Source: Natranaeroarchaeum aerophilus (GTDB lineage: Archaea > Halobacteriota > Halobacteria > Halobacteriales > Natronoarchaeaceae). From it: a DNA stretch of 64,000 nucleotides. The position numbers and the translations under genes were made by a program. The notes under the pieces are model-generated. The model saw only the letters and a list, made by a program, of their open reading frames with translations, did not search any database and was not told the DNA's origin. The stretch is taken from the NCBI RefSeq assembly GCF_023638055.1, contig NZ_JAKRVY010000011.1, forward strand, positions 1 through 64,000. The letters run 5' to 3'. Positions 22,176-57,048 of the stretch are shown piece after piece. The first letter of the stretch is position 1, and the number at the start of each line of letters is the position of its first letter.

Positions 22176-23803
22176 TGACTGACAAAACGTTCGGTGCTTG
22201 GCTGCATACACAACTCGACAATACCCTCGAAGAGATTCGACTATCGTTACAGGATGAACGTGGATGGCTGGCACCAGATCAGCTTGGTGACGACACAACC
22301 TACACATTCACGCTCCGAGACAATAGTCGGAACCCGACCGACCACTATCATCTGATAACTGACGACGCAGACGAGTTGAGACAAACACACTGGATCCAGT
22401 ACGAGTTCGCTCAGGCTGATGAGGAAGAAGCTGAGTTCCGGACACGTCTTATTCTCGAACTACCACTCGATATCGAGGCGTTCCGCAATCGAGTGACGGA
22501 ACCAATCACGCTCACGGCAGAGGAGATCAAGTCGCTTAAGACCCATAATGGAGTTCGCTCAGCCTCTGCTGGACGGGTCGCTGGTCTCGACTCGCAAAAG
22601 CGAGAGCTACGACAGTTCCTCCGGATGTCGAATGCTGAATGGGGACTGTCAGACCGGACAGGGATACTTTTGGAGGGACCACCTGGGACTGGTAAAACGG
22701 AACTCGTTATCGAGACCTGCCAAGAGGAGTTTAACGGGATGCCAGTCACGATATCCGGACCCGAGATCCTCAGTAAATGGGTCGGTGAGTCCGAGAGATT
22801 ACTACGGAAGAAATTCGAGGAAGCCCGAAACGCAGACACGAACGTTCTCTATATCGACGAGATCGACGCGATCGCACGCAGTCGCAGCGAAGCCTCACAG
22901 GAACATAGTGCACAACTCGTTGCTCAACTCTTAGTTCTGCTCGATGGGGTCGACGCGAAGACCAATGAGGCGCCGAAAGTTATTGCCTCTACGAATCTCT
23001 CCAAAGTACTGGATCCTGCACTCCTCCGTCCGGGACGGCTCGGTAACGAACCGATCTCGTTCCCGCGTCCAGACAAACCTCAACGTAAAGCGATCATCCA
23101 TCACTACATCGAACAGATTCGGCGACAGAATCCCGAGCATCTCACGACACCACTTCAAGGACTAGCCAAGCAGCCGATAGGATCCAGTTTGCTTACAGAA
23201 CTCGCCGAGGAGACGGAGGGGTTCACTGGTGCTGATGTCGAGGATGTGTTCATCGAGGCCGCGGTCAACGCACAGACAGGTCAAGAGGGGCTGCAATCAC
23301 TTAGCGTCGATATCGTCCGGGATGTCATCAGGAATCGGGAGATCTACCGTTCCGATTTCTACAATGACCAGTGGTTAGAAAAGTCAAAGAACGCGATTTC
23401 CTTCGAGAGCGCAGGTGAGGTCGCGATCGTGGACGATGACGTTGAGATAGATGTGCGAGATCTCGTGGATGCGTGGGCAGCAGAACTCATCAGCTCCGGT
23501 AGCAAACCAGTATGTTTTCGGAAGGTCACACTTGCTCAGCTTCTAATGCACGATGTTGGAGATACTCGCGATCGAATCGTTGAAGTTTTCCAGCGAAATG
23601 CCGACGATGGCCTCTGCGTGTATATCGCTGGGCTGCCACGACTCCTTCAGATGCGGGATCAAACGAATCTCGCAGACACCGCATTAGAAACAATCCACGA
23701 ACAACTCCTCCAGTGGAACGAAAATAATCTTCTCCTGCACAACAACCCGGGAGAATCAGTCAGTCGGCTGTCTGGCCAATATCGAGACTATGATACCAAA
23801 TAA
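22175..23803 (+). CDS. CDC48/PAN-type AAA+ ATPase, third gene of the operon
   Basis: A 542-residue protein with one classical AAA+ module: Walker A GPPGTGKT at 168-175, Walker B VLYIDEIDAIARSR with the DE at 228-229, sensor ASTN, arginine finger region LLRPGRLG, and an AAA lid with GFTGADVEDVFIEAAV. The first 130 residues are a separate domain (PDQLGDDTTYTFTLRDNS) in the place where CDC48-type proteins bind substrates. The last 140 residues are unique. Such ATPases remodel or unfold proteins. Direct coupling to a nuclease-like protein and an unknown protein suggests a defence complex in which the ATPase senses or loads. It starts at ATG 22175, overlapping the previous stop. Confidence 0.88.
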   Translation: MTDKTFGAWLHTQLDNTLEEIRLSLQDERGWLAPDQLGDDTTYTFTLRDNSRNPTDHYHLITDDADELRQTHWIQYEFAQADEEEAEFRTRLILELPLDIEAFRNRVTEPITLTAEEIKSLKTHNGVRSASAGRVAGLDSQKRELRQFLRMSNAEWGLSDRTGILLEGPPGTGKTELVIETCQEEFNGMPVTISGPEILSKWVGESERLLRKKFEEARNADTNVLYIDEIDAIARSRSEASQEHSAQLVAQLLVLLDGVDAKTNEAPKVIASTNLSKVLDPALLRPGRLGNEPISFPRPDKPQRKAIIHHYIEQIRRQNPEHLTTPLQGLAKQPIGSSLLTELAEETEGFTGADVEDVFIEAAVNAQTGQEGLQSLSVDIVRDVIRNREIYRSDFYNDQWLEKSKNAISFESAGEVAIVDDDVEIDVRDLVDAWAAELISSGSKPVCFRKVTLAQLLMHDVGDTRDRIVEVFQRNADDGLCVYIAGLPRLLQMRDQTNLADTALETIHEQLLQWNENNLLLHNNPGESVSRLSGQYRDYDTK

Positions 23804-25515: not shown

Positions 25516-25594
25516 GTCTGCTCGTCTCCGCCGTCCGCGGTAGTCGCAAGGCTAAAGCAGGCCCGTGTTTATACTCTATGTAAGAAACGCAGGT

Positions 25595-26425
25595 ATGAGT
25601 ACCATAAAACAATCTCAAAATATACGCCAGGGTCTCTCGACTCGAGAAAGTCGACTCCTCGCACGACTCGCTGGCGCGGGTCACCAGATCATCTCCGTCG
25701 ACGACATCGAGACGACGCTGGAGGTCCCCCCAAACACCGCCCGCGAGATCGCCTCCCGGCTCACCGAGAAGGGCTGGCTCGATCGGCTCTTCCCGGGCAC
25801 ATATCTCATCGTTCCACTCACAGCCGGCGAGGAAGCCGTGTACACCACCCACGAGTACCTCATCGCCGCCCACGTCGCCGAACCAATGTACATCGGTTAC
25901 TACAGCGCCCTCAGCCACCACGGGCTGACCGAACAGGTTCCCCGGACGGTGTACGTCGTCACGCCGACCCGAGCGCAAAGCCGAGAGATCCACGGTGTCC
26001 CGTACCGCGTCACGACAGTCACCGAGCGGAAGTTCTTCGGCTTTGAGCCGACATCCATCGAGGGCACGACCGTTCAGGTCAGCGACCTTGAGAAGACACT
26101 GGTCGACTGTGCGGACCACCCCGAGTTCTGTGGAGGCCTTCGGGAACTTGCGACCGCGATGCGTACTGCCGACGAACAGGGTTGCGACTGGCTCACTGTC
26201 GGCGAGTACCTCGAGCGCCTCGACAACGGCGCGGCGACCAAGCGGATCGTCTACCTCGCCGACCAGCTCGGCATCGACCTCCCCGCCCGCGAGGAACTCG
26301 TCGCGTCGTTCACGAGTGGCTACTCGTTGCTGGACCCGACGCGACCCGACACCGGATCGACCGACAGTACGTATCGCCTCCGAATCAACGTGGAGCCAGC
26401 CATGCTGGAGCCGACGGAGTCCTGA
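25595..26425 (+). CDS. AbiEi-type antitoxin
   Basis: A 276-residue protein of the AbiEi family. The N-terminal winged helix (ESRLLARLAGAGHQIISVDD and NTAREIASRLTEKGWLDRLF, PGTYLIVPL) is followed by the AbiEi-core, with the typical YIGYYSALSHHGLTEQVPR and DLEKTLVDCADHPEFCGGL. In type IV toxin-antitoxin systems this protein represses the operon and counteracts the nucleotidyltransferase toxin. A TATA box (GTTTATAC, 25567-25574) about 28 nt before ATG 25595 indicates a leaderless start. The toxin gene follows after 5 nt. Confidence 0.88.
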   Translation: MSTIKQSQNIRQGLSTRESRLLARLAGAGHQIISVDDIETTLEVPPNTAREIASRLTEKGWLDRLFPGTYLIVPLTAGEEAVYTTHEYLIAAHVAEPMYIGYYSALSHHGLTEQVPRTVYVVTPTRAQSREIHGVPYRVTTVTERKFFGFEPTSIEGTTVQVSDLEKTLVDCADHPEFCGGLRELATAMRTADEQGCDWLTVGEYLERLDNGAATKRIVYLADQLGIDLPAREELVASFTSGYSLLDPTRPDTGSTDSTYRLRINVEPAMLEPTES

Positions 26426-26430
26426 TCGCG

Positions 26431-27234
26431 ATGATCAGTCAGGACCGGCTCCGGATTCTCGCTCGCGAACTGGGCGTTCGGCAAGGGTACGCCGAAAAGA
26501 ACTACGTCAATTCGTGGCTCCTCTGGGGCATCTTCACGAGCAGCTACGGCGACAACCACCTGTTCAAAGGCGGGACCGCGCTGTCCAAGCTGTATTTCCC
26601 GCAATCGTGGCGATTCTCGGAGGACCTCTATTTTGGCGTCGAAGGGGAGTACCAGGGGTCCAAACAAGAGCTCCGAACGGTCCTCGATACGATTGCCGAC
26701 CGCTCTGGCATCGAATTCGAGATTCGCGAGCACCACGAATCCCAGCAGGACCACTACCCGACCCACTACGTCGACATCAGCATTCAGTACCGCGCCGTCC
26801 TTAACCACCCCAACACGACCAGCATCGACGTGATGGTCGACGAGCACGTCGCCTTCGACCCTGTTCAGCACACGCACGCGTACGAAGACGTGCCCGAATT
26901 CGATCTCCAGGCGTACAGCGTCGAGGAGATCTTCGCCGAAAAGCTCCGGGCGATCTACCAGCGCGGGGCCGCCCGTGACTACTATGATCTCTATCAGCTG
27001 CTCGAAACCGATTCGGTCGCGATCAACTTTGCCGACGTCAGACCCGCCTTCGACGCGAAGTGCAAACACGATGGGCTCACTGTTGATCTGAACGACGGAC
27101 TCCCGGACGAACAACAAGAAACGATCCGCCACCAGTGGGAGACCACGCTGCCGGACCTGACCGGTGATCCGCCGGCGTTCGAGATGGTCTGGGAACAGTT
27201 GGACACGGCGATCTCCCGACAGGGATCTTCGTAG
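26431..27234 (+). CDS. AbiEii-type nucleotidyltransferase toxin with a lost catalytic Asp
   Basis: A 267-residue AbiEii protein: FKGGTALSKLYFPQSWRFSE at about residues 48-67, a family-typical IDVMVDEHVAFDP strand, and VEEIFAEKLRAIYQRGAARD then YYDLYQLLE. The signature SEDxDF reads SEDLYF here, because the codon for the second Asp is TAT rather than GAT. That Asp belongs to the metal-binding D-x-D of this fold, so nucleotidyl transfer should fail. The rest is intact. Start ATG 26431; a longer upstream frame overlaps AbiEi and is non-coding. This may be a toxin that was silenced while its antitoxin was kept. Confidence 0.88.
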   Translation: MISQDRLRILARELGVRQGYAEKNYVNSWLLWGIFTSSYGDNHLFKGGTALSKLYFPQSWRFSEDLYFGVEGEYQGSKQELRTVLDTIADRSGIEFEIREHHESQQDHYPTHYVDISIQYRAVLNHPNTTSIDVMVDEHVAFDPVQHTHAYEDVPEFDLQAYSVEEIFAEKLRAIYQRGAARDYYDLYQLLETDSVAINFADVRPAFDAKCKHDGLTVDLNDGLPDEQQETIRHQWETTLPDLTGDPPAFEMVWEQLDTAISRQGSS

Positions 27235-29640: not shown

Positions 29641-32157
29641 ATGGTAACCCAGCCCGACATTGAGGACAAGGAGCGAATCGACATGCGGGTGCAGGTTATG
29701 GCGGAATTGGATCGTCCATCTAAAAAGATGGCACAGCGATTCGAGGTCGTTGACACTGCTGGAAACAAATTCCCGCTCACGATTTGGAAAAATAACGCAC
29801 TGAGTGATTTCGACTGGGAGTTGGAGCAGTGGTACAAACTCGAAAACGCGGGGGGGAACGTGTTCCAAGGAGAGAAAAGCTTGAATGGCTCCTCGAGACT
29901 GCGGGCCACCCCAATCGATCCCCCCAAAGAGATAGCTCAAAACAAACAGTTGTTCGAAGCCGTTGAGGACGGTCTCCCATATCTATCGCTATATCCCATA
30001 GACAGCGATTTCGCTGAGTTGTCAGTCTACGAGTACCAGATACAAGCGGAGGGAACCTTCGACGACTCGCCGATGGACGCCACGTACGACTTAGCGGCGT
30101 ACCTTCGAAAGTGTACTGACTCGCTCGTAACCCATGCGGGAGCTTTAAACATCGTCTCAACAGGTCGTATGAGTGTTGAATTACCAGACCCCTTCGTACT
30201 CGCTGAGGAACAGCAGACGGCGCTTCGAGCCGCTGAGCGAAGGGAGAACAATCAGATCGAACGGTTGCTCAAGCACGCACTCAAGAGAGCTGTTGACGAA
30301 GACACCTACGAAGCACAGAAGATCAACCGAATTCTGGAACGAGATCCCGTTATTGTCGGTTCAGATTCTCTCTTCGAAGCATGTCTCGCGTATGAGGCGC
30401 GCATCGAACTGTTCCCGTCGGGCGATGCGTTCGTCGGAGTCGAAGTGCGGTACCACACTCGGAGCCAGATAACTGTTAACGAGTACGTGGATCAGGTGGA
30501 TGCCGACATCGAAGATTTCGTCGATACACCTGTCGAACACGATCCAGACACCTATGATACCCCGGGGAGTGGAACACTGAAGGGATTCGCCGACGCACAC
30601 TTCACCGATCCGCTTCCAGAGCTCGGCAACCAATCGCTCGCCGACTGGTACGAACAGAAGGGCCGTATCTCAGAGAATCTTGCTGACGAACTTCGCGACG
30701 TGGATCCACAGCTCGTCGAGATAAACTATGATCCAGATGATGACGAGACAGATGTCCACGTTCCTCACCTACTCCGGGTCGCCCCACGGAAGGAGGTAGT
30801 CAAAGCCGTCGCACCAAAATTCCACCGAGAATGGGACCAGTCAGCAAAGATGCTACCCAATGAGCGATTCCAGAAGACAACCGCGTTCGTTCAGGAACTC
30901 GGCGAACTTCCAAAAGTTGACGCTCAGGTAGATCCGAGTCCAGCCGGCCCAAGCCTTTCGTTCATGTCGGCAGAAGTCAGCCGATCCAACAATCTCCAGT
31001 TTGGGGACGGGCGGACAGCTGGTGTACCAAGGAGAGGCCTCCAGCGCCACGGTGTCTACGAACCTCCGTCCAATTTCCATATTCATTACCTCGTTCCGGA
31101 ATGCGTTGCGGACGAATTTGAGACACTCCGTGGCCGACTCGAAAGGAAATTGCGAGACATCAAATGCCCTCCAGACAAGAAAACCTACAGCGAATACGAA
31201 CTGGGGAAGGCAATCGAGTACAACGAAGCATCCGCTGCGATTGACGATGTGGACGTGGCGTTGGTCGTCGTTCCATCCCCTGACGCCGACTCGATCACTG
31301 AAGGTACGATAGACGATCCATATCCAGAGTTCAAGAAAGCGTTCGGAAAACAGCGTATTCCGACGCAGATGGTTCGGATGACCAACCTCGATAACAAGTG
31401 GGTTACAGACAATACGGCACTCGGGCTCGTCGCAGGTGCTGGTGGTGTCCCGTGGCGCGTCGGCGAGATGCCTGGGGACGTTGATTGCTTTGTTGGATTG
31501 GACGCAACTCGGGACCCAGCATCAGGACAGTTCCTGGGTGCCAGTGCGAACGTCGTGCTCGCCGACGGGACGGTATTCGTGTCAAAGACGCAGTCGCTAC
31601 AGTCCGGCGAGACATTCGACGAGGACGCTATCGTCGACGTACTCAAAGATATTCACCGAGAGTTCGTTCGAGCGGAAGGGAGGTCCCCGGAGAGTATCGT
31701 TATCCACCGAGACGGGAGGCTATTCGAAGACGTCGGTAAAATACTCGAACCATTCGCGGAGACTGAGATTGATATCGACATCCTCGACATCCGGAAGAGT
31801 GGCGCTCCACGTGCCGCAGTCCGCGAGGACGGGGATTTCAAGATCGACAACAAGGGACGTCTTTTCGTCGCTAAACACGGCGATTATGGATTCCTCACGA
31901 CGACCGGGCGCCCAGAGTTCGACGAGAGCGACGGACTGGGGACTCCCCGGGCACTTCGTGTCGTTCGCCGATCTGGGGACACACCAATGGCGACGCTACT
32001 GAAGCAGGTGTACTGGCTGAGTGAGAGTCACATTGGAAGTGCGCAACGGAGTACTCGACTTCCAGTGACGACCTACTACGCCGACCGGTGTGCCGACCAC
32101 GCACGGAGGGGGTTCCTCCTGAACGGAGAGCTCATCCGTGGAGTTCCGTACGTATGA
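29641..32157 (+). CDS. Long-A prokaryotic Argonaute (NgAgo-like)
   Basis: An 838-residue Argonaute. The N-terminal 110 residues form an OB/RepA-like domain (RFEVVDTAGNKFPLTIWKNN), as in the Natronobacterium gregoryi protein. The MID/PIWI half has the text ALGLVAGAGGVPW and the catalytic tetrad DEDD: D621 (FVGLDATRDP), E657 (QSGETFDED), D691 (VIHRDGRLFED) and D815 (TTYYADRCADHARR). It is therefore predicted to be catalytically competent for guide-directed cutting of nucleic acid. It ends GVPYV, the usual hydrophobic tail. The ATG at 29641 has GAGGT just upstream and TTAAACT about 35 nt before it. The PLD/P-loop gene starts 114 nt downstream, followed by the Mre11-HerA cluster on the same strand. 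Likely role: defence against plasmids or viruses. Confidence 0.95.
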   Translation: MVTQPDIEDKERIDMRVQVMAELDRPSKKMAQRFEVVDTAGNKFPLTIWKNNALSDFDWELEQWYKLENAGGNVFQGEKSLNGSSRLRATPIDPPKEIAQNKQLFEAVEDGLPYLSLYPIDSDFAELSVYEYQIQAEGTFDDSPMDATYDLAAYLRKCTDSLVTHAGALNIVSTGRMSVELPDPFVLAEEQQTALRAAERRENNQIERLLKHALKRAVDEDTYEAQKINRILERDPVIVGSDSLFEACLAYEARIELFPSGDAFVGVEVRYHTRSQITVNEYVDQVDADIEDFVDTPVEHDPDTYDTPGSGTLKGFADAHFTDPLPELGNQSLADWYEQKGRISENLADELRDVDPQLVEINYDPDDDETDVHVPHLLRVAPRKEVVKAVAPKFHREWDQSAKMLPNERFQKTTAFVQELGELPKVDAQVDPSPAGPSLSFMSAEVSRSNNLQFGDGRTAGVPRRGLQRHGVYEPPSNFHIHYLVPECVADEFETLRGRLERKLRDIKCPPDKKTYSEYELGKAIEYNEASAAIDDVDVALVVVPSPDADSITEGTIDDPYPEFKKAFGKQRIPTQMVRMTNLDNKWVTDNTALGLVAGAGGVPWRVGEMPGDVDCFVGLDATRDPASGQFLGASANVVLADGTVFVSKTQSLQSGETFDEDAIVDVLKDIHREFVRAEGRSPESIVIHRDGRLFEDVGKILEPFAETEIDIDILDIRKSGAPRAAVREDGDFKIDNKGRLFVAKHGDYGFLTTTGRPEFDESDGLGTPRALRVVRRSGDTPMATLLKQVYWLSESHIGSAQRSTRLPVTTYYADRCADHARRGFLLNGELIRGVPYV

Positions 32158-32271
32158 CCGATAATAGAATCACTCACCAATCCATGATTCCCGAAACCCT
32201 TCCCAAAACTGCACTGTGCAACCGACCCCGGCCTGACTGTGACAGCACGCAGTCTGTCGGAGGTGGTAGAA

Positions 32272-34371
32272 ATGACTGATACGTGGACCTTCCAGACAGC
32301 TTTCGACGACGATGATGTCGAGACGGAGATTCGAGTCCTCCGATCGTGGGGGTCGTTTACTGACGTGTTCGAAGACGCTGCAGAGGTTCAGACGATAACG
32401 TACTGCGACTCCCCCCAACTCATCCTTCGTCTTCTGGAAAGAGACGAGAACATCGAGATAGACTCTCTCGAGGTTGTCGTAGGTGACCGGACACCGGAGC
32501 AATACCGCGATAAACTCACTAATCACGTCGATGAGGCGTATCGGATGAAGAAACTCATCGAGGATGATCGACTCAGGATATACAATCTCGATTCATCGCG
32601 GTCAATCCTTCACACCAAGCTGTACCGGATCACCAAGCACGATGGCAGTCACACGCTCATTCTGGGATCGGCAAACCTCTCAAAACAGGCCTGGGAGAAC
32701 ACGAAACAAACCAACACAGTCGTTCTCTTTCATACTGACGGGACATCCGGCCTTGACGAGGCATTCAGGGAGGCGTACGAGACCCAGAAAGAGGACTACA
32801 CGACCGAGTTCATGTCGGGCCTCATCGAGGATTTGGAGGAAATCGAGACCAAGGACGACGAGCGAGAGCGCATCTCGGCATGGGTCGATGGGCGCGTGGG
32901 CGATCATGAGGAGGTGACTGAACTCAACAAGAAGGTGACTCAGGAGCTCGACGACGTCGACGTCGATATCCACAAGCTCACGGACGATCCGGAAGAGGCC
33001 GACAGCACAGTCTCGTTTGTCAGCGATGACGAGGAGGCAGACGAAGTCATTGAGGAGCGGATATCACTCTCTCGACGGGGATTCGACAACGGATCAAATG
33101 CGTTTGAGGGGCTTCGAGACTTCGACAACACCACGATCAAGGACGACGTCATCAGGACGACTCCCCAGGCCTACACAGAGTACCTCCAAGAGGAGTACGG
33201 AATTCCGAAGATGTGGTTCGCGGAAGACGACGGCAGACTGCTAATGGAAGGGCCTTCCAGGCGACATGGACTGATGGCTGACGGTCTCCCCGATGATCCG
33301 TCCCGGATTGACGCGGCACTCGCTGACCTCGAGGCTTACTTCGAGACGGTCGAGCGGCATGGAGACTCCAATGACTACAATGCTGTTAAGGCACACATGT
33401 TTGAGGCGCTCCTTTGGTTCTTCTGGGCACCGTTCATTAACAAGTACGCATCTCGGTTCCGGGATGCGAATCTCACACTTGACGACGCACTGCCTTTCCT
33501 ATACATCTACGGCGAATCGAACGCAGGCAAGGGGACGTTCGCCCAGTTCGCACTCTCACTCATCTCCCACAGTGTTGTCGATGAACCCGCCGATGCTGAC
33601 GAGATCGGTACTCGCCAGGTCCGTGGCCTACGAAAGGTCGACTCTGCGTTTCCGCTGGTCGTCGACGACGTGACGAAGAACAAGATTGACAACCGGATCG
33701 ACGGGCCGCTTCGCAATTACTGGAAGAACTGGCCAGGCGACATCCAGTACCCCGGAATCGCCTTCATCTCGAACAACAAGCGGCCAAAGAAGTGGTTCCG
33801 GAATCGAGCGAAGATCCTCCACTTCGACGTGTTTTTCGAAGGTACGTTCAAATCACGTCACGAGGTCGGGGAAGTCATCGACCAGGACAACCCCGTGTTC
33901 GAGTGGTTCACCTACGTACTCGGGGAGCGTGACATCGAACTTCGCGAATCGAACGACACACTATACGACGCTCGGCAAGCGTTTCTCACACTCTACGAGG
34001 CAGCAAATCGGGAAGTTCCAGAGTACTTCCCGCGGAAGCCTGCAGACGAACACCACGATACCGCGAAGGGGAAATGGCACCGAGCACATGACCGGGGACA
34101 GCTAGAATTCAGCGAGTACAACGGGAATCTCGTCGCAACGTTCAACGAAGAAATGTCGTTCGACGTGCGGTCGTACTGTCGGTCGCTCCCGACACGGATG
34201 CGGCCCGAGCCTAGCGGTCGTGAGATCGAGATCAAACACGTCGACAACTTCATTGAATGGTTCGGGGAGGATCCAGTCGGACTCCGGCCAGAGGAAGAAG
34301 CCAACACAGAGGAAGAGACCCCCGACACCAACGGCGTTACCTCTCGGCTCAGGAGGGCGATTTTCGGATGA
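32272..34371 (+). CDS. PLD-like nuclease fused to a P-loop ATPase, Argonaute-linked
   Basis: A 699-residue two-part protein. Residues 1-200 are a phospholipase D-type domain with a single HKD motif: HTKLYRITKHDGSHTLILGS then ANLS (residues 114-137). Residues 350-620 form a P-loop NTPase, with YIYGESNAGKGTFAQFA (Walker A at 414-422), Walker B-like FPLVVDDVTKNKI and FISNNKRPKKW, in the manner of superfamily 3 or primase-type helicases. The linker (about 200-340) is acidic. GGAGGTGG 7-14 nt before ATG 32272 makes that start better than the GTG at 32239. A single HKD implies that two chains form one active site. It follows Argonaute on the same strand and is probably part of the same system. Confidence 0.8.
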   Translation: MTDTWTFQTAFDDDDVETEIRVLRSWGSFTDVFEDAAEVQTITYCDSPQLILRLLERDENIEIDSLEVVVGDRTPEQYRDKLTNHVDEAYRMKKLIEDDRLRIYNLDSSRSILHTKLYRITKHDGSHTLILGSANLSKQAWENTKQTNTVVLFHTDGTSGLDEAFREAYETQKEDYTTEFMSGLIEDLEEIETKDDERERISAWVDGRVGDHEEVTELNKKVTQELDDVDVDIHKLTDDPEEADSTVSFVSDDEEADEVIEERISLSRRGFDNGSNAFEGLRDFDNTTIKDDVIRTTPQAYTEYLQEEYGIPKMWFAEDDGRLLMEGPSRRHGLMADGLPDDPSRIDAALADLEAYFETVERHGDSNDYNAVKAHMFEALLWFFWAPFINKYASRFRDANLTLDDALPFLYIYGESNAGKGTFAQFALSLISHSVVDEPADADEIGTRQVRGLRKVDSAFPLVVDDVTKNKIDNRIDGPLRNYWKNWPGDIQYPGIAFISNNKRPKKWFRNRAKILHFDVFFEGTFKSRHEVGEVIDQDNPVFEWFTYVLGERDIELRESNDTLYDARQAFLTLYEAANREVPEYFPRKPADEHHDTAKGKWHRAHDRGQLEFSEYNGNLVATFNEEMSFDVRSYCRSLPTRMRPEPSGREIEIKHVDNFIEWFGEDPVGLRPEEEANTEEETPDTNGVTSRLRRAIFG

Positions 34372-34594
34372 GCACAACCAATCTGTATGGCCTGTGGGAG
34401 AACAGCCGGGAGAGCATATCGTCAGCTCTCCACTGCAGGCGGCTATCCCCCTTTCAGATAGCTCTAGAGCCTGCTGGGCTCCTTCAGCTGACCACGAGGG
34501 TTAATTTACAGCTATGTGCTGGAAACACTCCCAGATACGACCTCAGCATCGCGTGCTCAACCGCCCCACACAACCAGTTCGGTGACATTCAGCA
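34372..34594. other. Gap between PLD-ATPase and Mre11
   Basis: No gene is recognised in these 223 nt. It may hold a promoter for the Mre11-HerA operon, but no clear TATA box is visible. Confidence 0.35.
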
Positions 34595-36226
34595 ATGACC
34601 TACCAATTCCTTCACGCAGCCGACATCCACCTCGGTCACCGCCAGTATAACCGCACTCAACGTGAACGCGATATGTACGCCACGTTCAAGAAAACGCTCG
34701 AGGATGCCGTCAATGATCACGGTATTGACGCCGTCTTCATCCCAGGCGACCTCTTCCATTCCCGGGATCTACGGCCAAGTGTTCTCGAGACAGCCGAGCG
34801 AGCTCTCGATGTCGTTCCGGAGGACGTTCCTGTGCTGGTCACACCAGGGAACCACGATCAGAACCTCGATCGACGTGAGATGACCTGGCTGGAATATCTC
34901 CACCAGCGTGACGCTATCACGCTGCTTCAACCGGACTTTGCCGGCATTAGTCAGAATGAGCGATCCGCCGAGAAACTCTTCCCCTCACCACAGGCCGCAA
35001 GTGAGGGAGAGGGAACAGGTGTCGATGGAACGGTCCCCGGTTACTTCGATCTCGAAGTGTCTGGATTCGATGCCCCTCTGCGTGTATTTGGTCTGGAATA
35101 TCGAGGGGGATACATCGATACGGCACTCGAACAAACGAAGACTGCTATCAAATCAGTCAACGATCGTGCTGGTGAACCCAGCCACACCGTGTTAATGGGC
35201 CATTTCGGTGTGGCAGACGAAGTTCCCGATCTCGGGGCCGCAGCCCGGTACTCAACGCTCCAGCAGCTCGAAGACGTAGTCGATTATCTCGCACTTGGGC
35301 ACATCCACAAGCCGTACGAGGGCCCGGGTGACGACCCGTGGTTTTTCAATCCCGGCTCGCTCGAAGCCCATAGCACAGACGAGGCCCGCTGGGAGCTAGG
35401 CTATTACGTAACCGAGCTAGGTGCAGAAGACTTCGCTGCCAATCACCAGACGAGCAAACGTAGACCATTCTACACCTTCGAGTGGGATGTCGACGGATAC
35501 GATACATGGAGCGATCTCGTCAACGAGTTCGGCGAAGCGGTCGATAACAAGCGGGCAGACATCGAAACCTGGTGTAGCCGTGACGAATACACCACGAAAG
35601 ACGGCAATCCTCGAAGTCCCGTCATCGACCTCCAGATCCGAGGCCATCTTGAGTTCGACCGTCGTGACCTCGATGTCGAAGCCCTAGAATCGATGATTAC
35701 AGAGGTGACCAACGCTGTCCACGTCCAGACTAAAACGAGTGTCACCACAGCAGAGATCATCGACCTCGTTGAGGATATGGATGAAGAGGCGGTCTTCACC
35801 GACACCGGTACGCTTCGGACCGAAATTCTCGAGGATGAAGTGTTCACGACGGTAGCGAAGCAGACACCGTTCAGCGAGGATCCTGAAGCGACTGCAGAGG
35901 CGCTTACCCACGCAAAAGAACTAGTAATCGAAGAGCAGGCTAGCGGAGAGTCCGTCGCAGACTACCTGCAAGAACGCCGGCGAGAAACGTTTCAGGGAGG
36001 CGTCGGTTCAGTCGATCCGACGTACGATGAGGTTGCCGATCATGCTGACGACGGAGGGATTGATGACGAAGTTTTCAACGCAGTACACGCCGGTGAAGAG
36101 GTCGATCCAGTAGAAGCTGCTGCACAGACAGTAGAAGCCAAATCTGAAGAAACTCCGGCTATCGAAGAAGTACCTAAGGATGTCGATGACGACGCATCAG
36201 TAGCAACGAAGGGAGGTGAGAACTGA
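34595..36226 (+). CDS. mre11: Mre11 nuclease
   Basis: A 543-residue calcineurin-like phosphoesterase. The metal ligands of the family are present: AADIHLGHR (D9, H11), FIPGDLFHS, TPGNHDQNLD, LMGHFG and LALGHIHKP. The C-terminal part, acidic and extended, would hold the Rad50-binding region. With Rad50, Mre11 opens and trims DNA ends. The stop overlaps the rad50 start by 1 nt (TGATG). This copy is more divergent than a housekeeping Mre11 and sits in a cluster with NurA and HerA next to Argonaute, which suggests an accessory rather than chromosomal role. Confidence 0.93.
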   Translation: MTYQFLHAADIHLGHRQYNRTQRERDMYATFKKTLEDAVNDHGIDAVFIPGDLFHSRDLRPSVLETAERALDVVPEDVPVLVTPGNHDQNLDRREMTWLEYLHQRDAITLLQPDFAGISQNERSAEKLFPSPQAASEGEGTGVDGTVPGYFDLEVSGFDAPLRVFGLEYRGGYIDTALEQTKTAIKSVNDRAGEPSHTVLMGHFGVADEVPDLGAAARYSTLQQLEDVVDYLALGHIHKPYEGPGDDPWFFNPGSLEAHSTDEARWELGYYVTELGAEDFAANHQTSKRRPFYTFEWDVDGYDTWSDLVNEFGEAVDNKRADIETWCSRDEYTTKDGNPRSPVIDLQIRGHLEFDRRDLDVEALESMITEVTNAVHVQTKTSVTTAEIIDLVEDMDEEAVFTDTGTLRTEILEDEVFTTVAKQTPFSEDPEATAEALTHAKELVIEEQASGESVADYLQERRRETFQGGVGSVDPTYDEVADHADDGGIDDEVFNAVHAGEEVDPVEAAAQTVEAKSEETPAIEEVPKDVDDDASVATKGGEN

Positions 36227-39000
36227 TGCGCGTGACAGAAGTTAGTTTAGAGAACGTCAAAAGCTACGAGGAAAAGACGACGATCTCCCTCGGAGAAGGA
36301 GTGACAGCAATCCTCGGTGAAAACGGTTCTGGGAAGTCAACAATCGCCGAAGCGATCGGATTTGCGCTGTTCAACACTCTACCGTACAATAACCAGGATG
36401 AATTCGTCCGGGAAGGGGAATCCTCAGGAACAGTTTGGGTGAGCTTCGAGATCGGCGGAGAGGAATTCACCGTTGAACGCAGTACCAACGGCACCTACAA
36501 CGTTAATCACGAGACCGAAGATGCTGAATTGGAGTTCGATACCCACGACGAGGTGAAAGATTGGATCCGTCGCAAGTTCAGTCTCGACAAGGAGAGCGAC
36601 GTCGACTTGTCCACCCTATGGGAGAAATGTCTCGGTGTAGAGCAGACGAAATTCCTCTCCGACTTCCGTGGCTCGCAACGGACTCGAGAGGAACAGTTCG
36701 ATCCGTTGCTGGGACTTGATATCTACGAACAGGCGTGGAGTTCACAGAGCACCCACAACCTGAAACAACCAGTCGACGAACTGAAAAAACGCAGGCAGAC
36801 TGCCAGCGAGCGGATCAACAAACTCCAGGGGATGGTCGAGGGCCTCCCCGAGCAGCAGAAAACCCTTGAGGGACAACAAAGTGAGGTCGAAAGGCTGTCA
36901 AAAAGACTTAACGAGATACAATCGGACCTCGCCAATGCGAGAGAAGAGTTCGGCGACCTAGACGAACTAAAGGAACGGCAAGATGAACTGAAACGAGTAG
37001 TCGACAACGTCAAGAGTCAGATCGAAGGCAAGGTCGAACAGCTCGAGACAGCACGGTCTGATCTTGAGGAGGCCCGGAGCGCTGCAAAGGCTGTCGACGA
37101 GACGGCAGAAGAGCATAACCAGTATTGTAAAGCAGACGAGCTTCTCGATGACTTGCGCGAGCAGAAGCGCGAACGAGACAAGCTTGAGAGCAGGGTGAAC
37201 GAAGCTACCACGGCGTACCGGGATGCAAAACGCGATTTCGAGACTGTACAGGACCGAGCCAAAGAGGCCCGAGCCGCCGAAGAGCGGATGGCCAGACTCG
37301 AGGACGCCTACGAGCGTTACAAGCAGTTGAACCAGAAAATAGAGGAGGCGCAAGAAGCCACCCAGCAAATCGATGAGAATGAATCACTGGTTCAGGAAGT
37401 TGACGAGATCGAACTTCCAGCAGCAGAAGAAAGGGTTACAAACCAGAAAGAGAAAATCGCGAAACTAGAGTCTAAGAAGCCGCTCGCTGAGGCAGCTGAC
37501 GAACTCGACGAAATGCGCGCCGATCTCAAAGCGGAGATTGAGCGGCAATCAGAGAAACTTCAAGATCTCGATGAACAGCGTGAGAGGTTGCTTGCCGTCG
37601 ACATCGATAGCCGTGACCACGAGCACTCGGAGGAAGCAACCTGTCCAACCTGTGATCGCTCTATGGACGCCGACCTCCGTGACAAAGTCGTCAACAACAT
37701 CGAGGACCAGATCGAGGCCTGCCAAGCTGCGATCGAGGATGCGGAAGCGCGCCTTCCCGCTGTCAATACCGGTCTGGCACTTGCAAGGAATGCGCAAGAG
37801 GCAGTCGCCAGTCTCGACGCCGAGCGAGATCGGCTAAATGAGTTCGAAGAGGAAGTCAAAGAGATAGAAAATCGGCGCGAGCGCCTCGTAAATGAGTGTG
37901 AAGAGCTCAAGCCAGTTGCCGAACAACTGGCTGATCTCAAGCAGGAGCAATCAGATCTGGAAGATGACCATAGAGCCTACGAAGAGGCGGAGTTCGAATA
38001 CCAGCAGAAGTGCGATGCGATCGAGAAAGTCGACAAGGCTCGCGAGGAGATGTTTGAAGCCGCCCACGTGGTCGCCCATTTGGAACGTCGGCTGGAGACA
38101 GAATTTGATGATCTGGACGAGCAAATTGCTGACCAGGAGAAAATCAAGGAGGCGGCCGAAGATGCCCACAACCGGTATGTTCGGAACGAAGCCGATGCTG
38201 AACGGCTTGACGAACGTCGCGACCGAGTATATAGTCTGTACGAGGAGATTGAAAATCTCGAGCGCGACCGCCGAGAAGCGAAGCAAGAACTAAATCAGGT
38301 GGAAGCAGACTTCGATGCCGACCGCCATGCCGAACTCAACGAGCAGATTGATGACCTGGATAGTCAGGAGACAAGACTCGATACGGAACTTAGCAAAGCA
38401 CAGGACAAGTTAGAAGAGATTCAGTCCGAGGTAGAACGACTCGAGACCATTGACTCACAGCTCGAACGGTGGAAGGAGACCCACGTACAACTCGAGCGGG
38501 ACATCAAATTCGCTGACACTGTTCGAGATGGTGTCCGAGACGCCGGTCCGAAGATGCGGGAACTAATCGCTAATCGAATCGGCGAGCGTGCAAACCAGAT
38601 CTACCAAGCGCTCCGAGGAACCGGTCGAGAGAGTCTGACGTGGGACGAAACATACCAAATCACCGTTCAAGACGGCAGCCAACACAAATCCTTTAGCAAT
38701 CTCTCGGGCGGGGAAAAGATGGCAGCCGCGCTGGCGGTTCGTCTGGCAATCATGGAACAAATCAGCCCGCTCGACATTGCGGTACTTGACGAACCCACGT
38801 CGAACCTCGACGATGAAAAGAAGAACAATCTGGTCCGGCAACTCGAGAACCTCGATGCGTTCGAGCAGCTCTGTGTGATCTCTCACGACGACACGTTCGA
38901 GTCGATGACCGAGTACACGATATCTCTCGAGAAACCGGATCGCGAGACGCACGTGGTCTCGGACGCAGAGTCTGAGGCACGACCGACGGGGGCCGATTGA
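36226..39000 (+). CDS. rad50: Rad50 ATPase
   Basis: A 924-residue SMC-like ATPase. Walker A is GENGSGKST at 31-39. A long coiled coil spans about 170-740, interrupted by the zinc hook CPTC at 473-476. The ABC signature LSGGEKMAAA is at 826, and Walker B with D-loop is IAVLDEPTSNLDDEKK, followed by the switch His (VISHDDTFE). Rad50 tethers DNA ends and controls the Mre11 nuclease. It lies directly between mre11 (1-nt overlap) and nurA (1-nt gap), so one transcript is expected. Confidence 0.95.
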   Translation: MRVTEVSLENVKSYEEKTTISLGEGVTAILGENGSGKSTIAEAIGFALFNTLPYNNQDEFVREGESSGTVWVSFEIGGEEFTVERSTNGTYNVNHETEDAELEFDTHDEVKDWIRRKFSLDKESDVDLSTLWEKCLGVEQTKFLSDFRGSQRTREEQFDPLLGLDIYEQAWSSQSTHNLKQPVDELKKRRQTASERINKLQGMVEGLPEQQKTLEGQQSEVERLSKRLNEIQSDLANAREEFGDLDELKERQDELKRVVDNVKSQIEGKVEQLETARSDLEEARSAAKAVDETAEEHNQYCKADELLDDLREQKRERDKLESRVNEATTAYRDAKRDFETVQDRAKEARAAEERMARLEDAYERYKQLNQKIEEAQEATQQIDENESLVQEVDEIELPAAEERVTNQKEKIAKLESKKPLAEAADELDEMRADLKAEIERQSEKLQDLDEQRERLLAVDIDSRDHEHSEEATCPTCDRSMDADLRDKVVNNIEDQIEACQAAIEDAEARLPAVNTGLALARNAQEAVASLDAERDRLNEFEEEVKEIENRRERLVNECEELKPVAEQLADLKQEQSDLEDDHRAYEEAEFEYQQKCDAIEKVDKAREEMFEAAHVVAHLERRLETEFDDLDEQIADQEKIKEAAEDAHNRYVRNEADAERLDERRDRVYSLYEEIENLERDRREAKQELNQVEADFDADRHAELNEQIDDLDSQETRLDTELSKAQDKLEEIQSEVERLETIDSQLERWKETHVQLERDIKFADTVRDGVRDAGPKMRELIANRIGERANQIYQALRGTGRESLTWDETYQITVQDGSQHKSFSNLSGGEKMAAALAVRLAIMEQISPLDIAVLDEPTSNLDDEKKNNLVRQLENLDAFEQLCVISHDDTFESMTEYTISLEKPDRETHVVSDAESEARPTGAD

Positions 39001-39001
39001 T

Positions 39002-40249
39002 ATGCTGCAAGATCCGGGCGCAGTGAGTAATCAACTTGAGGGGCTCCACGACGACCTCGCGGAGTTCGCTACTGGCGATCGGTCCCTGGCCGACATCTAC
39101 CGTGACACACTACTGGAGGAACAAGAAACGTCGAGTGCCAAGGAAGTACGTGAAGTCGTTTCGGGGACGTACGCTGATGCTCTACCAACGACCGAATTCG
39201 ACAGCATGGACGGTCTGACCATTCCATTTGAGACCGCAACAGAGTGGACCTCTCATGAAAGTGCTGGGCGATGGGCCAGTGATGTACTCGATGGGCTTCC
39301 AACAGTCGCAGTCGATGGCTCAGAACTTGACCCTACTACTGAGCTGAATGTCCCCGTAGCACTGGTGCAGGTGGTCTCATACGTCAACCATCACACGGCA
39401 GACGGGGAGTATAGCCTCGAATCTGAGACGACTGTCGTTCCGCCTGACGAGATCGTCGTCGGGTCAGACGATAACTCATACTCGTACGTCGATGAGACTC
39501 AGGCGCAACACGCTCGGTTTGAGCGGGAAACAGAGACGGTGAAAAACCTGATCAAGGAGTATGGGAGCCACCAACCCCCGCCTGTGATTCTCTTTGATGG
39601 GTCTCTCTCCGTCTCGTATGCTAACCTGTTCGACGACAATACTACCCAACGCTACGTTGAGGCGATGGCGGACTTACTTGCTGCAAGTCGAGCACACGGT
39701 GTCCCAGTCGTGGGATATATTGCTGGCTCGCAATCGTCAGACGTGGCGGACCTAATCCGGAAACTCCAGCCAGGGGCTCTGGGTAAGACGGGGCTTGCAC
39801 GTGACGCCGCCATCTTCTCCCCCCTCCTCGAAACGTGGGGTAGTCGGACCGCACTCTTCCAGAGTCAGCGCGACCGCTCCCTGGAGCAGCTACGGACGAC
39901 CTACCAGGGTGAAGAATACAAATTTGGAGACAGGCTCCGGTTCACGTACGCCGATTTCGGTGAAGGCTCCAGTCTAGATCGGCTCGAAGTGCCCCAGTGG
40001 ATGATCGAAGAGGATGCACCAGCTGATTGGCCTGGTGAAACGATGTTCGAGTATGCCTTCCGCGCAACCCAGGCTGAAGCCGCTGTCGGGCAGGGCTATC
40101 CCGAAGCCATCCAAGTCGCCGATCGAGAAGCGGTTCTCACAGGGAGTGACCGGGATAGGCTCCTCCGGATGTTGCTTCGATTAGGAGAAGAGGCTGAATT
40201 CCCAGTCGAATGGAACCCAAAAGATCGTAGCAAGCGCCGCCGCCGATGA
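39002..40249 (+). CDS. nurA: NurA-type nuclease
   Basis: A 415-residue NurA-domain protein. The first metal-binding motif is LPTVAVDGSELDPT near residues 98-111 and the second strand pair PPVILFDGSLSV near 195. A later conserved block (VVGYIAGSQSSDVADLIRKL) and the C-terminal FEYAFRATQAEA also fit. NurA is the single-strand endonuclease and 5'-3' exonuclease that works inside the HerA hexamer in archaeal end resection. It is 1 nt from rad50; a 58-nt gap separates it from the next gene. Confidence 0.9.
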   Translation: MLQDPGAVSNQLEGLHDDLAEFATGDRSLADIYRDTLLEEQETSSAKEVREVVSGTYADALPTTEFDSMDGLTIPFETATEWTSHESAGRWASDVLDGLPTVAVDGSELDPTTELNVPVALVQVVSYVNHHTADGEYSLESETTVVPPDEIVVGSDDNSYSYVDETQAQHARFERETETVKNLIKEYGSHQPPPVILFDGSLSVSYANLFDDNTTQRYVEAMADLLAASRAHGVPVVGYIAGSQSSDVADLIRKLQPGALGKTGLARDAAIFSPLLETWGSRTALFQSQRDRSLEQLRTTYQGEEYKFGDRLRFTYADFGEGSSLDRLEVPQWMIEEDAPADWPGETMFEYAFRATQAEAAVGQGYPEAIQVADREAVLTGSDRDRLLRMLLRLGEEAEFPVEWNPKDRSKRRRR

Positions 40250-40307
40250 TCAGCACAACACAACTGAAACTCACCAATATCGTAAACACTGACATCCAAA
40301 GAAAGCC

Positions 40308-40967
40308 ATGATGAACGCTCGAGACACCTTCGCCGACGCCAAGCCGCTCGGAAGCATCGCGCAATCGAAATCAACTATCGACTATACTGCCACAATCCTC
40401 ACGGAACGCGACGCAGACAACCCGCCCGATGTCACCGACTATGGATTCGGTCAGCCGGTGGTGCTCCCGATGAGTCGGAACGAGACCGAAGAGGTAGCGG
40501 TCGGGGTAATTCATGGAACCCAAGTAATCGATCCTGGGATGGGTGGTGTCGGACCGACACTTGGGACAGACGAAGCGACTAACCAGTTTCGACCGAGCCT
40601 GGTTGACGAGCCAACAACGCTCGTTGGTATCGCGCTGCTCGGCAGTGCAAGTTGTACTGGCGACTCGAAGACGGACAAACGAATCGAAAATCCGGATCAT
40701 TCGATCCCAGCATACGCTATCAGCCACGGGACGACCGTCTACAAGTGTCCAAACCAGACATTCCGAAGATTCCATCTAGTCGATGATAATCTTTCGCTGG
40801 CGTACTATCCGCGCTTGACGGAAGTGGCCGGGGCATTCGGAGCAGAGCTGGTCGGTGAGATCACGAGTCAACTACGCGAGTCCACCGACGAGTATAGCGA
40901 CCTTTTGGACGTGATCGAGCGGAAAGTAGCTCATGAGGCTAACGTTGAACGGGGTGTTCTGCAGTGA
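40308..40967 (+). CDS. Unknown protein between NurA and HerA
   Basis: A 219-residue protein (MMNARDTFADAKPLGSIAQS) with no recognised domain. It has a beta-rich first half (GQPVVLPMSRNETEEVAVGV) and a helical C-terminus (GAELVGEITSQLRESTDEYS). ATGs at 40308 and 40311 are equally possible starts. Its stop overlaps the GTG start of herA (GTGA), so it is coupled to HerA and may be a specificity or regulatory subunit of the NurA-HerA machine. Confidence 0.65.
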   Translation: MMNARDTFADAKPLGSIAQSKSTIDYTATILTERDADNPPDVTDYGFGQPVVLPMSRNETEEVAVGVIHGTQVIDPGMGGVGPTLGTDEATNQFRPSLVDEPTTLVGIALLGSASCTGDSKTDKRIENPDHSIPAYAISHGTTVYKCPNQTFRRFHLVDDNLSLAYYPRLTEVAGAFGAELVGEITSQLRESTDEYSDLLDVIERKVAHEANVERGVLQ

Positions 40968-42643
40968 GAAGCGATGATGCGGCTATCCTCGCTGCGGATC
41001 GCCTGTCCGACGAACCAGTCGTGGGTACAGTCGTCGAACCAGATGATGATGTAGGCGGATTTGTGTTCGCAACTCGTGACGAACAAGCAGTCTCGACCGG
41101 AGAGTTTGTTGCCTACAGCCAGTGCGTAGTTGGTAGTGAAGACGACGAGATCATCCTTGCTCGAGTGAATAACCGGGAACGGGAATCGGGACTCCCTACA
41201 TCCTTCATGGCTGATCCGACCGTCGATGCAGATCAAATCGCAACGACCCTCGGCGCAGAAGCAGACGGATGTGAGCTGTATCGGATCACGGCTAGCGTAA
41301 TCGGATACTACGATCCAGAATTCGAGTCGTTTAGAAATCCACGACAACTCCCGAGTTCGGGAACCCGTCTCTATCGTGCCCCGGGCGAGATGCTCGAAGT
41401 AGTTATTCCGAAGATTAAGCCGCCCTCACATCGGGACAACGACGAACCCGATCCTGGGATGGCCCAAATGGGCCGATTGCTGAATCGGACTGATGAAAGA
41501 GTATCTGTCGAGTTACCAGTCAACGAAATAGCAGCGACTCACCTCGCTATCCTAGCCTCCACAGGAAGCGGGAAGTCCTACACTGCTAGCGTTTTGCTTG
41601 AGGAGATGCTCAAGCCCGACACACGAGCTTCGGTGCTGGTATTCGATCCACACGGCGAGTATGAAAGCCTCGATCAGATGTGCGATCACGAAGCCTTCCA
41701 AGGGGCGGATGGCTACAGCCCCGCCGTCGAACTCCGCCGTTCTGACCAGTTATCGGTGAAGCTGGCCGATCTGACGTTCGATGATTTCTACTCAATTCTC
41801 GAACCGACCCAACGAATGTCGTCAGTGCTGAATGATGCCCTCGACGACCTCCAGGACGAAGAGTCGTTTACCGCATCTCAACTCCTGAAAGCGTGCCACT
41901 CGAACCATCCAGACGGTCAGGCGAACGGTCTGAAATGGCGAATTAATCGCCACATTGTACAATCAGACTTTTTCGATGGGTACGATCGGCTCGATCTTGA
42001 CGACCTCGTGAATCCGGGCCAGGTGACAGTCTTCCAGATGGGAGGTCTCACCCGTCGTGACCAGCAAGTGATGGCCGCTGTCTTGCTCCGCAAACTGTAC
42101 GCGTCAAGGGAAGCAGCGGTTGTGGGGAACCCGGAAGACGTCCGATCAGAGATTAAACATCCCGTTTTTACGCTCTTTGAGGAGGCTCACCGGTTCGCAC
42201 CCGATGGAGACTCACAGGCGTTACCGATCATCCGGCAAGTGAATAGCGAAGGCCGGAAGTTTGGCCTCGGCACTGGCCTAATCAGCCAACGACCATCGAA
42301 AATCGATGAAACAGTCCTCTCACAGTGTGGAACGCAGATTACGATGAACATCACCAACCCGAACGACCAGCAAGCGATACGCGACTCTATCGAAAACGCC
42401 GGAGAGGCGGTTTTAGAGGAATTACCTGGATTGACAAAAGGTCAAGCCATCATCTCAGGCGACGCAGTGAATACTCCGGTACTTTCGAAAATCCGAAACC
42501 GGCACACAGACCACAAGGCCGACAGTTTGAGTGCGGACCAGCTGTGGCGCGAGGCATACGATGACGCGAAGGGAGCACCGTCGACTAGTAAACCGGCACG
42601 CTCTGACGAAAGTGGCGTGTTTGACGGAGAGGAAGAAATATAG
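40964..42643 (+). CDS. herA: HerA hexameric DNA translocase
   Basis: A 559-residue HerA/FtsK-type ATPase. The N-terminal region (PVVGTVVEPDDDVGGFVFAT) is a HAS-barrel that docks NurA. The DUF87 core has Walker A LASTGSGKS (to 205), strand VLVFDPHGEYESL, Walker B HPVFTLFEEAHRFAP and the sensor segment GLGTGLISQRPSKID. HerA drives DNA through the NurA nuclease. The GTG start at 40964 lies in a GTGA overlap with the preceding stop. It ends the same-strand series that began with Argonaute. HerA also forms defence complexes with SIR2, DUF4297 and other nucleases. Confidence 0.93.
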   Translation: MRSDDAAILAADRLSDEPVVGTVVEPDDDVGGFVFATRDEQAVSTGEFVAYSQCVVGSEDDEIILARVNNRERESGLPTSFMADPTVDADQIATTLGAEADGCELYRITASVIGYYDPEFESFRNPRQLPSSGTRLYRAPGEMLEVVIPKIKPPSHRDNDEPDPGMAQMGRLLNRTDERVSVELPVNEIAATHLAILASTGSGKSYTASVLLEEMLKPDTRASVLVFDPHGEYESLDQMCDHEAFQGADGYSPAVELRRSDQLSVKLADLTFDDFYSILEPTQRMSSVLNDALDDLQDEESFTASQLLKACHSNHPDGQANGLKWRINRHIVQSDFFDGYDRLDLDDLVNPGQVTVFQMGGLTRRDQQVMAAVLLRKLYASREAAVVGNPEDVRSEIKHPVFTLFEEAHRFAPDGDSQALPIIRQVNSEGRKFGLGTGLISQRPSKIDETVLSQCGTQITMNITNPNDQQAIRDSIENAGEAVLEELPGLTKGQAIISGDAVNTPVLSKIRNRHTDHKADSLSADQLWREAYDDAKGAPSTSKPARSDESGVFDGEEEI

Positions 42644-56852: not shown

Positions 56853-57048
56853 GGCCGTATTAGAACAATTAGCACACCAAAGAGCAGGGTAAACGCTGAG
56901 GTTGATAAGTTCAGCGACCCTGCAAGATGATCCTTCGGTCTAGTTGTTCTTCTATATCGTTGCGACCATCCGTGCTCTCACCCTCGAAAGCCGATCAATA
57001 GGGAACTTGGTCAACACGAATAAACCCCTCGCCCGATTGACTGAATGT

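Follow-up and report, generated by a model that had tools for sequence, protein, structure and literature searches.

We examined a window of 64,000 nucleotides from the archaeon Natranaeroarchaeum aerophilus (positions 1 to 64,000 of contig NZ_JAKRVY010000011.1, assembly GCF_023638055.1), in which a gene for a long-A prokaryotic Argonaute (pAgo, here Ago) is followed by a gene for an AgaP-type PLD nuclease and then by a five-gene cassette, mre11-rad50-nurA-X-herA (MRNXH, where X is a small protein). From Ago through herA (29641-42643) every gene lies on the plus strand and all frames are open, and open reading frame 605 (ORF605) is divergent from Ago on its upstream side (Table 1). An earlier reading, made from the sequence alone, had described these genes in one orientation, and each of them was confirmed at its position. 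The tightness which that reading ascribed to the cassette is borne out by overlaps and by gaps of at most 58 bp: mre11 and rad50 overlap by 1 base, rad50 and nurA are 1 bp apart, nurA and X 58 bp, and X and herA overlap by 4 bp. The PLD gene and mre11 are separated by 223 bp.

Alignment with the solved CpAgo identified the DEDD tetrad of Ago as D621-E657-D691-D815, in agreement with the earlier view that the Argonaute is catalytically complete. The fusion of PLD and P-loop domains was also read correctly. The start codon of this AgaP-type gene is likely the ATG at 32272 rather than 32239, the PLD nuclease is N-terminal (H125xK, GSxN at 143) and the P-loop helicase-like domain C-terminal, and H125, K127, G143, S144, N146 and the P-loop residues are invariant across 15 aligned homologues, including AgaP of Natrinema pellirubrum. 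In a structure model of moderate confidence (mean predicted local distance difference test score, pLDDT, 71), the N-terminus matches the NgoAVII R protein and the C-terminus the SCCmec Cch helicase and SF3-type helicases, and because of these matches the protein is predicted to combine a PLD nuclease with a motor of the replicative-helicase type.

The pair is closely related to pAgo-AgaP (APAP), a haloarchaeal system that has been tested. The APAP pair of N. pellirubrum has been shown experimentally to be an immune system in which AgaP is toxic unless Ago is present (PMC11442185), and restriction of plasmids and ssDNA viruses is among the properties that mark APAP. The sequence-only reading had both components right but did not recognize this known system. 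The window Ago is 66% identical to N. pellirubrum Ago, and the PLD protein about 40% identical to its AgaP. The two loci share the gene order Ago-PLD, the catalytic residues of both proteins and a divergent upstream ORF605 homologue, whereas N. pellirubrum has no mre11-rad50-nurA-X-herA set after Ago-PLD and its HxK and GSxN motifs are about 49 residues apart, compared with 15 in the window. The longer spacing reflects an insertion in N. pellirubrum AgaP that is present in only two other aligned homologues (L078 and L079). Because the motif is compact in the window, we treat the pair as an APAP-type relative and not as a strict member. ORF605 itself is a recurrent neighbour, and homologues 57-61% identical to it lie by Ago in most loci of the window-Ago and APAP/AddB clades.

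The contig is 76.7 kb long, carries a Cdc6/Orc gene and has a GC content of 0.55, compared with about 0.62 in sampled stretches of host contigs C1, C2 and C4 and 0.595 on C13. No near-identical copies were found among known plasmids. A promoter and terminator scan gave sites no commoner than in shuffled sequence, the promoter model being bacterial and not applicable to archaea. Several other defence-like genes occupy the same contig (Table 1).

Table 1. Genes of the array and other defence-like genes of the contig (E, E-value)
Feature	Position	Strand	Basis
ORF605, AAA_14/DUF4143-type ATPase with winged helix-turn-helix	27623..29440	-	Pfam AAA_14 E 3e-7, DUF4143 E 5e-8
Long-A pAgo, 838 aa	29641..32157	+	PADLOC pAgo PDLC02388 E 4e-298; Pfam Piwi E 1e-12
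AgaP-type PLD nuclease + P-loop helicase-like protein	32239..34371	+	conserved motifs, structure model
Mre11-type nuclease	34595..36226	+	PF00149 E 9e-13
Rad50-type ATPase	36226..39000	+	Walker A, CPTC zinc hook, LSGGE, Walker B
NurA nuclease	39002..40249	+	PF09376 E 1e-28
X, 219 aa	40308..40967	+	without Pfam or PADLOC family; HAS-barrel-like predicted fold
HerA hexameric translocase	40964..42643	+	PF01935 E 4e-36; PADLOC HerA E 2e-51
GmrSD/type IV	3707-5392
MrfA/BrxHI-like helicase	10427-12943
IetA-like AAA ATPase	22124-23803
AbiEi/AbiEii-like pair, upstream of ORF605 and Ago	25565-27234		PADLOC E 3e-98, 4e-92
TmtA-like with NO VEIN C-terminus	56944-61284

An accessory cassette and its protein X

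The motifs of the cassette proteins are preserved: the phosphoesterase motifs of Mre11 and the motifs of Rad50 are intact, and D105 and D199 of NurA are invariant among 21 homologues. The sequence-only reading had raised the possibility that this cluster is the only copy in the host and hence its housekeeping set. This is not so, because the host chromosome has a separate Mre11-Rad50 pair (C13:4985-8979) and a separate NurA-HerA pair (C1:666577-667860 and 668236-670092; L192, L005), and a housekeeping origin was rejected on these grounds. MRNXH is instead an accessory, rare and mobile unit with a fixed gene order. Among 392 haloarchaeal genomes of the order, 36 encode the cassette-type NurA and 34 of these have the complete mre11-rad50-nurA-X-herA order, the others being cut by a contig end (G036) or a remnant (G389); mre11 is the first cassette gene in every complete relative. 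A scan of a genome collection gave 29 loci, some of them from genomes already counted, and on every contig of sufficient length the order was unchanged, except in one remnant. A NurA-X-HerA set was also seen on a contig of 3 kb (L186) that bears the label of a Halanaerobiaceae bacterium metagenome-assembled genome and is probably mis-binned haloarchaeal DNA.

Two papers describe HerA and NurA as missing in H. volcanii or as 'not apparent' among haloarchaea (PMC7776575, PMC12977600). A NurA-like gene is, however, present in 378 of the 392 genomes, so that haloarchaea do have a near-universal NurA homologue in addition to accessory sets. As in the thermophilic archaeal mre11-rad50-herA-nurA operon, described as the end-resection machinery of those organisms (PMC7776575), the four protein families are clustered in the window with overlaps or short gaps; unlike that operon, the window set is accessory and sporadic, has X between nurA and herA, and coexists with separate chromosomal copies. 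The likeness to this resection machinery, together with the Cdc6/Orc gene of the contig, would fit a set for repair or recombination of the mobile replicon itself, processing ends when that replicon is replicated, integrated or mended after damage, with Ago as a passenger or as an aid in decatenation or recombination; Argonaute can assist chromosome decatenation in bacteria, according to work cited in PMC7776575. We consider this explanation unlikely. MRNXH is mostly found on large contigs, some of chromosome size, and not on small replicons, the hosts already own separate sets, no virus contig with X was found, and the PLD nuclease that recurs as its partner is reportedly toxic when expressed without its Ago (PMC11442185). 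A viral origin or carriage of the cassette was rejected, since no contig of the viral collection searched carries a confirmed X homologue.

It is still less probable, to the point of being very improbable, that the array consists of decaying remnants of two islands joined by chance. Decayed copies do exist, among them a cassette with frameshifts (G179), the G389 remnant and an Ago gene with a stop codon (G172). In the window, however, all frames are open and the examined motifs intact, and the gene order is kept across dozens of loci.

Protein X is conserved (28 sequences aligned) and, among the loci studied, occurs only with MRNXH. In a comparison with PDB sequences it gave only a chance-level match, and a profile comparison with the HerA N-terminus was not significant (hhalign probability 0.4%). 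Its AlphaFold2 model (mean pLDDT 82) finds HerA or HerA-defence-complex entries in all 50 PDB fold matches listed (best E 5e-6), including the HerA-NurA complex of T. kodakarensis, with a TM-score of about 0.4 by query length. Because its predicted structure matches HerA-family structures, X is modelled as a stand-alone HAS-barrel-like protein, the match being to the HAS-barrel part of HerA. X most likely serves as an adaptor between the HerA ring and either NurA or Mre11-Rad50. The antiphage systems Sir2-HerA and HerA-DUF4297, whose HerA is matched by the fold of X, resemble the window in joining a HerA translocase to a nuclease. They differ in that NurA is the nuclease partner in the window, where Mre11-Rad50 and X come in addition, and Pfam and PADLOC scans of the array found no Sir2 or DUF4297 domains. 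Lamassu also has a Rad50-type ATPase in defence (LmuB profile match, E 7e-36), but the array is without LmuA or LmuC (none in the PADLOC scan) and has true Mre11, NurA and HerA instead.

Argonaute beside end-degrading genes

At a threshold of E 1e-20 or better, Ago is present in 45 of the 392 genomes. Ago and the cassette NurA occur together in ten genomes, where 4.1 would be expected (P 0.004, kinship ignored), and in seven of these ten the two lie within 10 kb of each other. The seven are the window, G172 and a group of five from different families with one conserved divergent Ago-MRNXH arrangement (G096, G141, G215, G219 and G275); Natrinema hispanicum is an additional linked case from the genome-collection scan. 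Two control genes were examined across these 45 genomes, and only 2 of 179 N6-methyltransferase matches and none of 22 PglZ matches over the cut-off lie as close as 10 kb to Ago. The contrast with the cassette has a raw Fisher P of 3e-9, or 2e-4 if the G096 group is entered as a single case. On the NurA tree, Ago linkage requires at least three changes, and on the Ago tree the linked cases (window, G172 and the G096 group) fall in three separate places. AgaP acts as a hub among the modules: its homologues lie near MRNXH in 9 of the 29 cassettes that have no Ago within 10 kb, and AgaP is present in 30 of 146 genomes in an even sample. In Halorubrum vacuolatum (L175), MrfA-MrfB and PLD genes flank MRNXH as in the G096-type loci; Ago was not detected there and was possibly lost.

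Other enzymes of the same kind also adjoin Ago, which makes the pattern a convergent one. Eight more genomes (G027, G124, G152, G162, G174, G270, G287 and G299) have, within 10 kb of Ago, a divergent Mre11-Rad50-NurA-HerA set that lacks X and whose NurA2 is identified by PF09376 (E 2e-7 and 1e-4). Accessory NurA2 copies were judged by score and by Rad50 and HerA neighbours in the loci checked, since a nearly universal housekeeping homologue makes the NurA2 search unusable as a presence or absence count. In G287 the genes form a co-directional and near-gapless array, mre11-rad50-nurA2-herA-PLD-Ago (gaps of -4, 2, -1, 23 and -41); the G124 array is similar with a DUF2797 gene added, and that of G152 has the DUF2797 gene and no PLD gene. 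In all three, an ORF605-like gene (a 35% homologue) is divergent from the array, as in the window, and their layout is that of the window with the two halves swapped. The same divergent type also occurs away from Ago as a Rad50-NurA2-HerA cassette. A Mre11-Rad50 pair lies about 5 kb from Ago in G255 if the contig is circular and, with this genome included, a module that contains Mre11-Rad50 lies within 10 kb of Ago in 16 of the 45 Ago genomes. A further engine stands directly downstream in eleven Ago-PLD loci (L110-L119, L088), where an AddB-like, a PD-(D/E)XK and a UvrD-nuclease gene form a conserved, RecBCD/AddAB-like set in archaea; association of pAgo with UvrD and PD-(D/E)XK proteins was noted earlier (PMC6299218).

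Two loci from different families, L130 (G027) and L134 (G162), have virtually identical NurA2 and Rad50/HerA stretches and near-identical Ago, a likeness pointing to recent transfer of a whole Ago-engine island. MrfA/MrfB-like helicase-exonuclease pairs adjoin several Ago genes (L070-L074, L079, L122-L124, L069); neither these nor UvrD-only neighbours were counted as evidence. In one large clade of Ago genes (L070-L075, L129-L137), the gene directly upstream encodes a DUF2797 protein.

A proposed composite anti-invader system

The best reading of these data is that Ago/AgaP of haloarchaea has time and again been combined with an engine of its own for degrading double-stranded DNA ends, that this engine is exchangeable, and that the whole works like CbAgo with RecBCD. 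Because related archaea have repeatedly placed Ago beside such enzymes, the two sets of genes probably cooperate in destroying invading DNA. For the window itself we lean, by a modest degree, towards a composite anti-invader system of two modules in which Ago/AgaP is functionally coupled to MRNXH, and we infer from the arrangement that the genes may be co-transcribed and their products physically or functionally coupled.

Several observations weigh against this. The sequence-only reading had linked Argonaute to the resection genes, and among relatives that expectation is borne out only in part: linkage is frequent among genomes that carry both modules, arose by at least three joinings and has a parallel in the divergent sets, but the linked cases are a minority, 29 of the 36 cassettes having no Ago within 10 kb. 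Most Ago loci are without MRNXH, and both modules also occur alone. No Ago was detected in the genomes of the window's nearest cassette relatives (G036, G074 and G380), and the closest Ago relatives (G153, which is N. pellirubrum, G372 and G306) have no MRNXH. The N. pellirubrum pair restricts plasmids and works in Haloarcula hispanica without this cassette (PMC11442185). In G172 the Ago gene (L069:13157-15679) has an in-frame TAA stop, and this copy may therefore be inactive. Finally, the 223-bp gap separates the two halves of the window array, and the replicon is rich in defence genes (AbiE, GmrSD, Tmt-like), which cluster anyway.

Much of this would suit a different explanation, that APAP and a stand-alone MRNXH antiviral nuclease are two independent defence systems which share a mobile island and do not cooperate. 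Each occurs alone in most genomes, APAP functions without MRNXH (PMC11442185), and the window also has the AbiEi/AbiEii, GmrSD and Tmt-like genes. Furthermore, methyltransferase genes are often found 10-30 kb from Ago, and Ago therefore does sit in islands. Within 10 kb of Ago, however, common defence-related genes are almost never found, whereas rare end-processing modules are found repeatedly, and the arrays of G287, G124 and G152 are near-gapless and co-directional. We thus regard independence as a serious alternative, although an appreciably less probable one than coupling.

If the modules are coupled, Ago, guided by multicopy or foreign DNA pieces, would locate or nick invader DNA, and AgaP would assist it in cutting. 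Mre11-Rad50 would then open the end left by the break. HerA, as a ring to which X is docked by way of its HAS-barrel-like fold, would drive the duplex into NurA, which would degrade both strands. The HerA-NurA step draws on the biochemistry of the T. kodakarensis proteins, which degrade both strands and have been proposed to be antiviral (PMC12977600). The cut-then-degrade logic, which the sequence-only reading had proposed and which is plausible, draws on CbAgo, which causes degradation together with RecBCD (PMC10164581). In both cases a guided break would be followed by processive degradation by an end-dependent helicase-nuclease, but the nuclease in the CbAgo case is the unlinked RecBCD of the E. 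coli host, whereas the window would encode a dedicated, unrelated engine beside Ago. The engine would be exchangeable, with related Ago loci using the divergent Mre11-Rad50-NurA-HerA or the AddAB-like helicase-nuclease. A broader proposal, to which we give a little less than an even chance, is that haloarchaeal Ago is a guide-carrying front end in a class of immune machines for which at least three engines were separately recruited. AgaP would be the linker that they share, and X a new HAS-barrel subunit that acts as adaptor in a HerA-NurA motor.

In four papers on pAgo (PMC2743648, PMC6299218, PMC11442185 and PMC12988326), Mre11 is not mentioned, nor is HerA beside a pAgo, HerA appearing only in PMC2743648 and with regard to sirtuins; NurA beside a pAgo, looked for in PMC11442185 and PMC12988326, is not mentioned in those two. 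Subscription literature lay outside this search, and a prior report is possible.

In summary, the elimination of invaders by CbAgo in E. coli reportedly involves the RecBCD of the host, and dedicated engines encoded beside Ago would answer who finishes the degradation in archaea. The array offers a candidate operon for experiments, in organisms that are amenable to genetics. Furthermore, it would give a natural role to HerA-NurA and Mre11-Rad50, whose part in resection has recently been put in doubt, with antiviral defence favoured instead.

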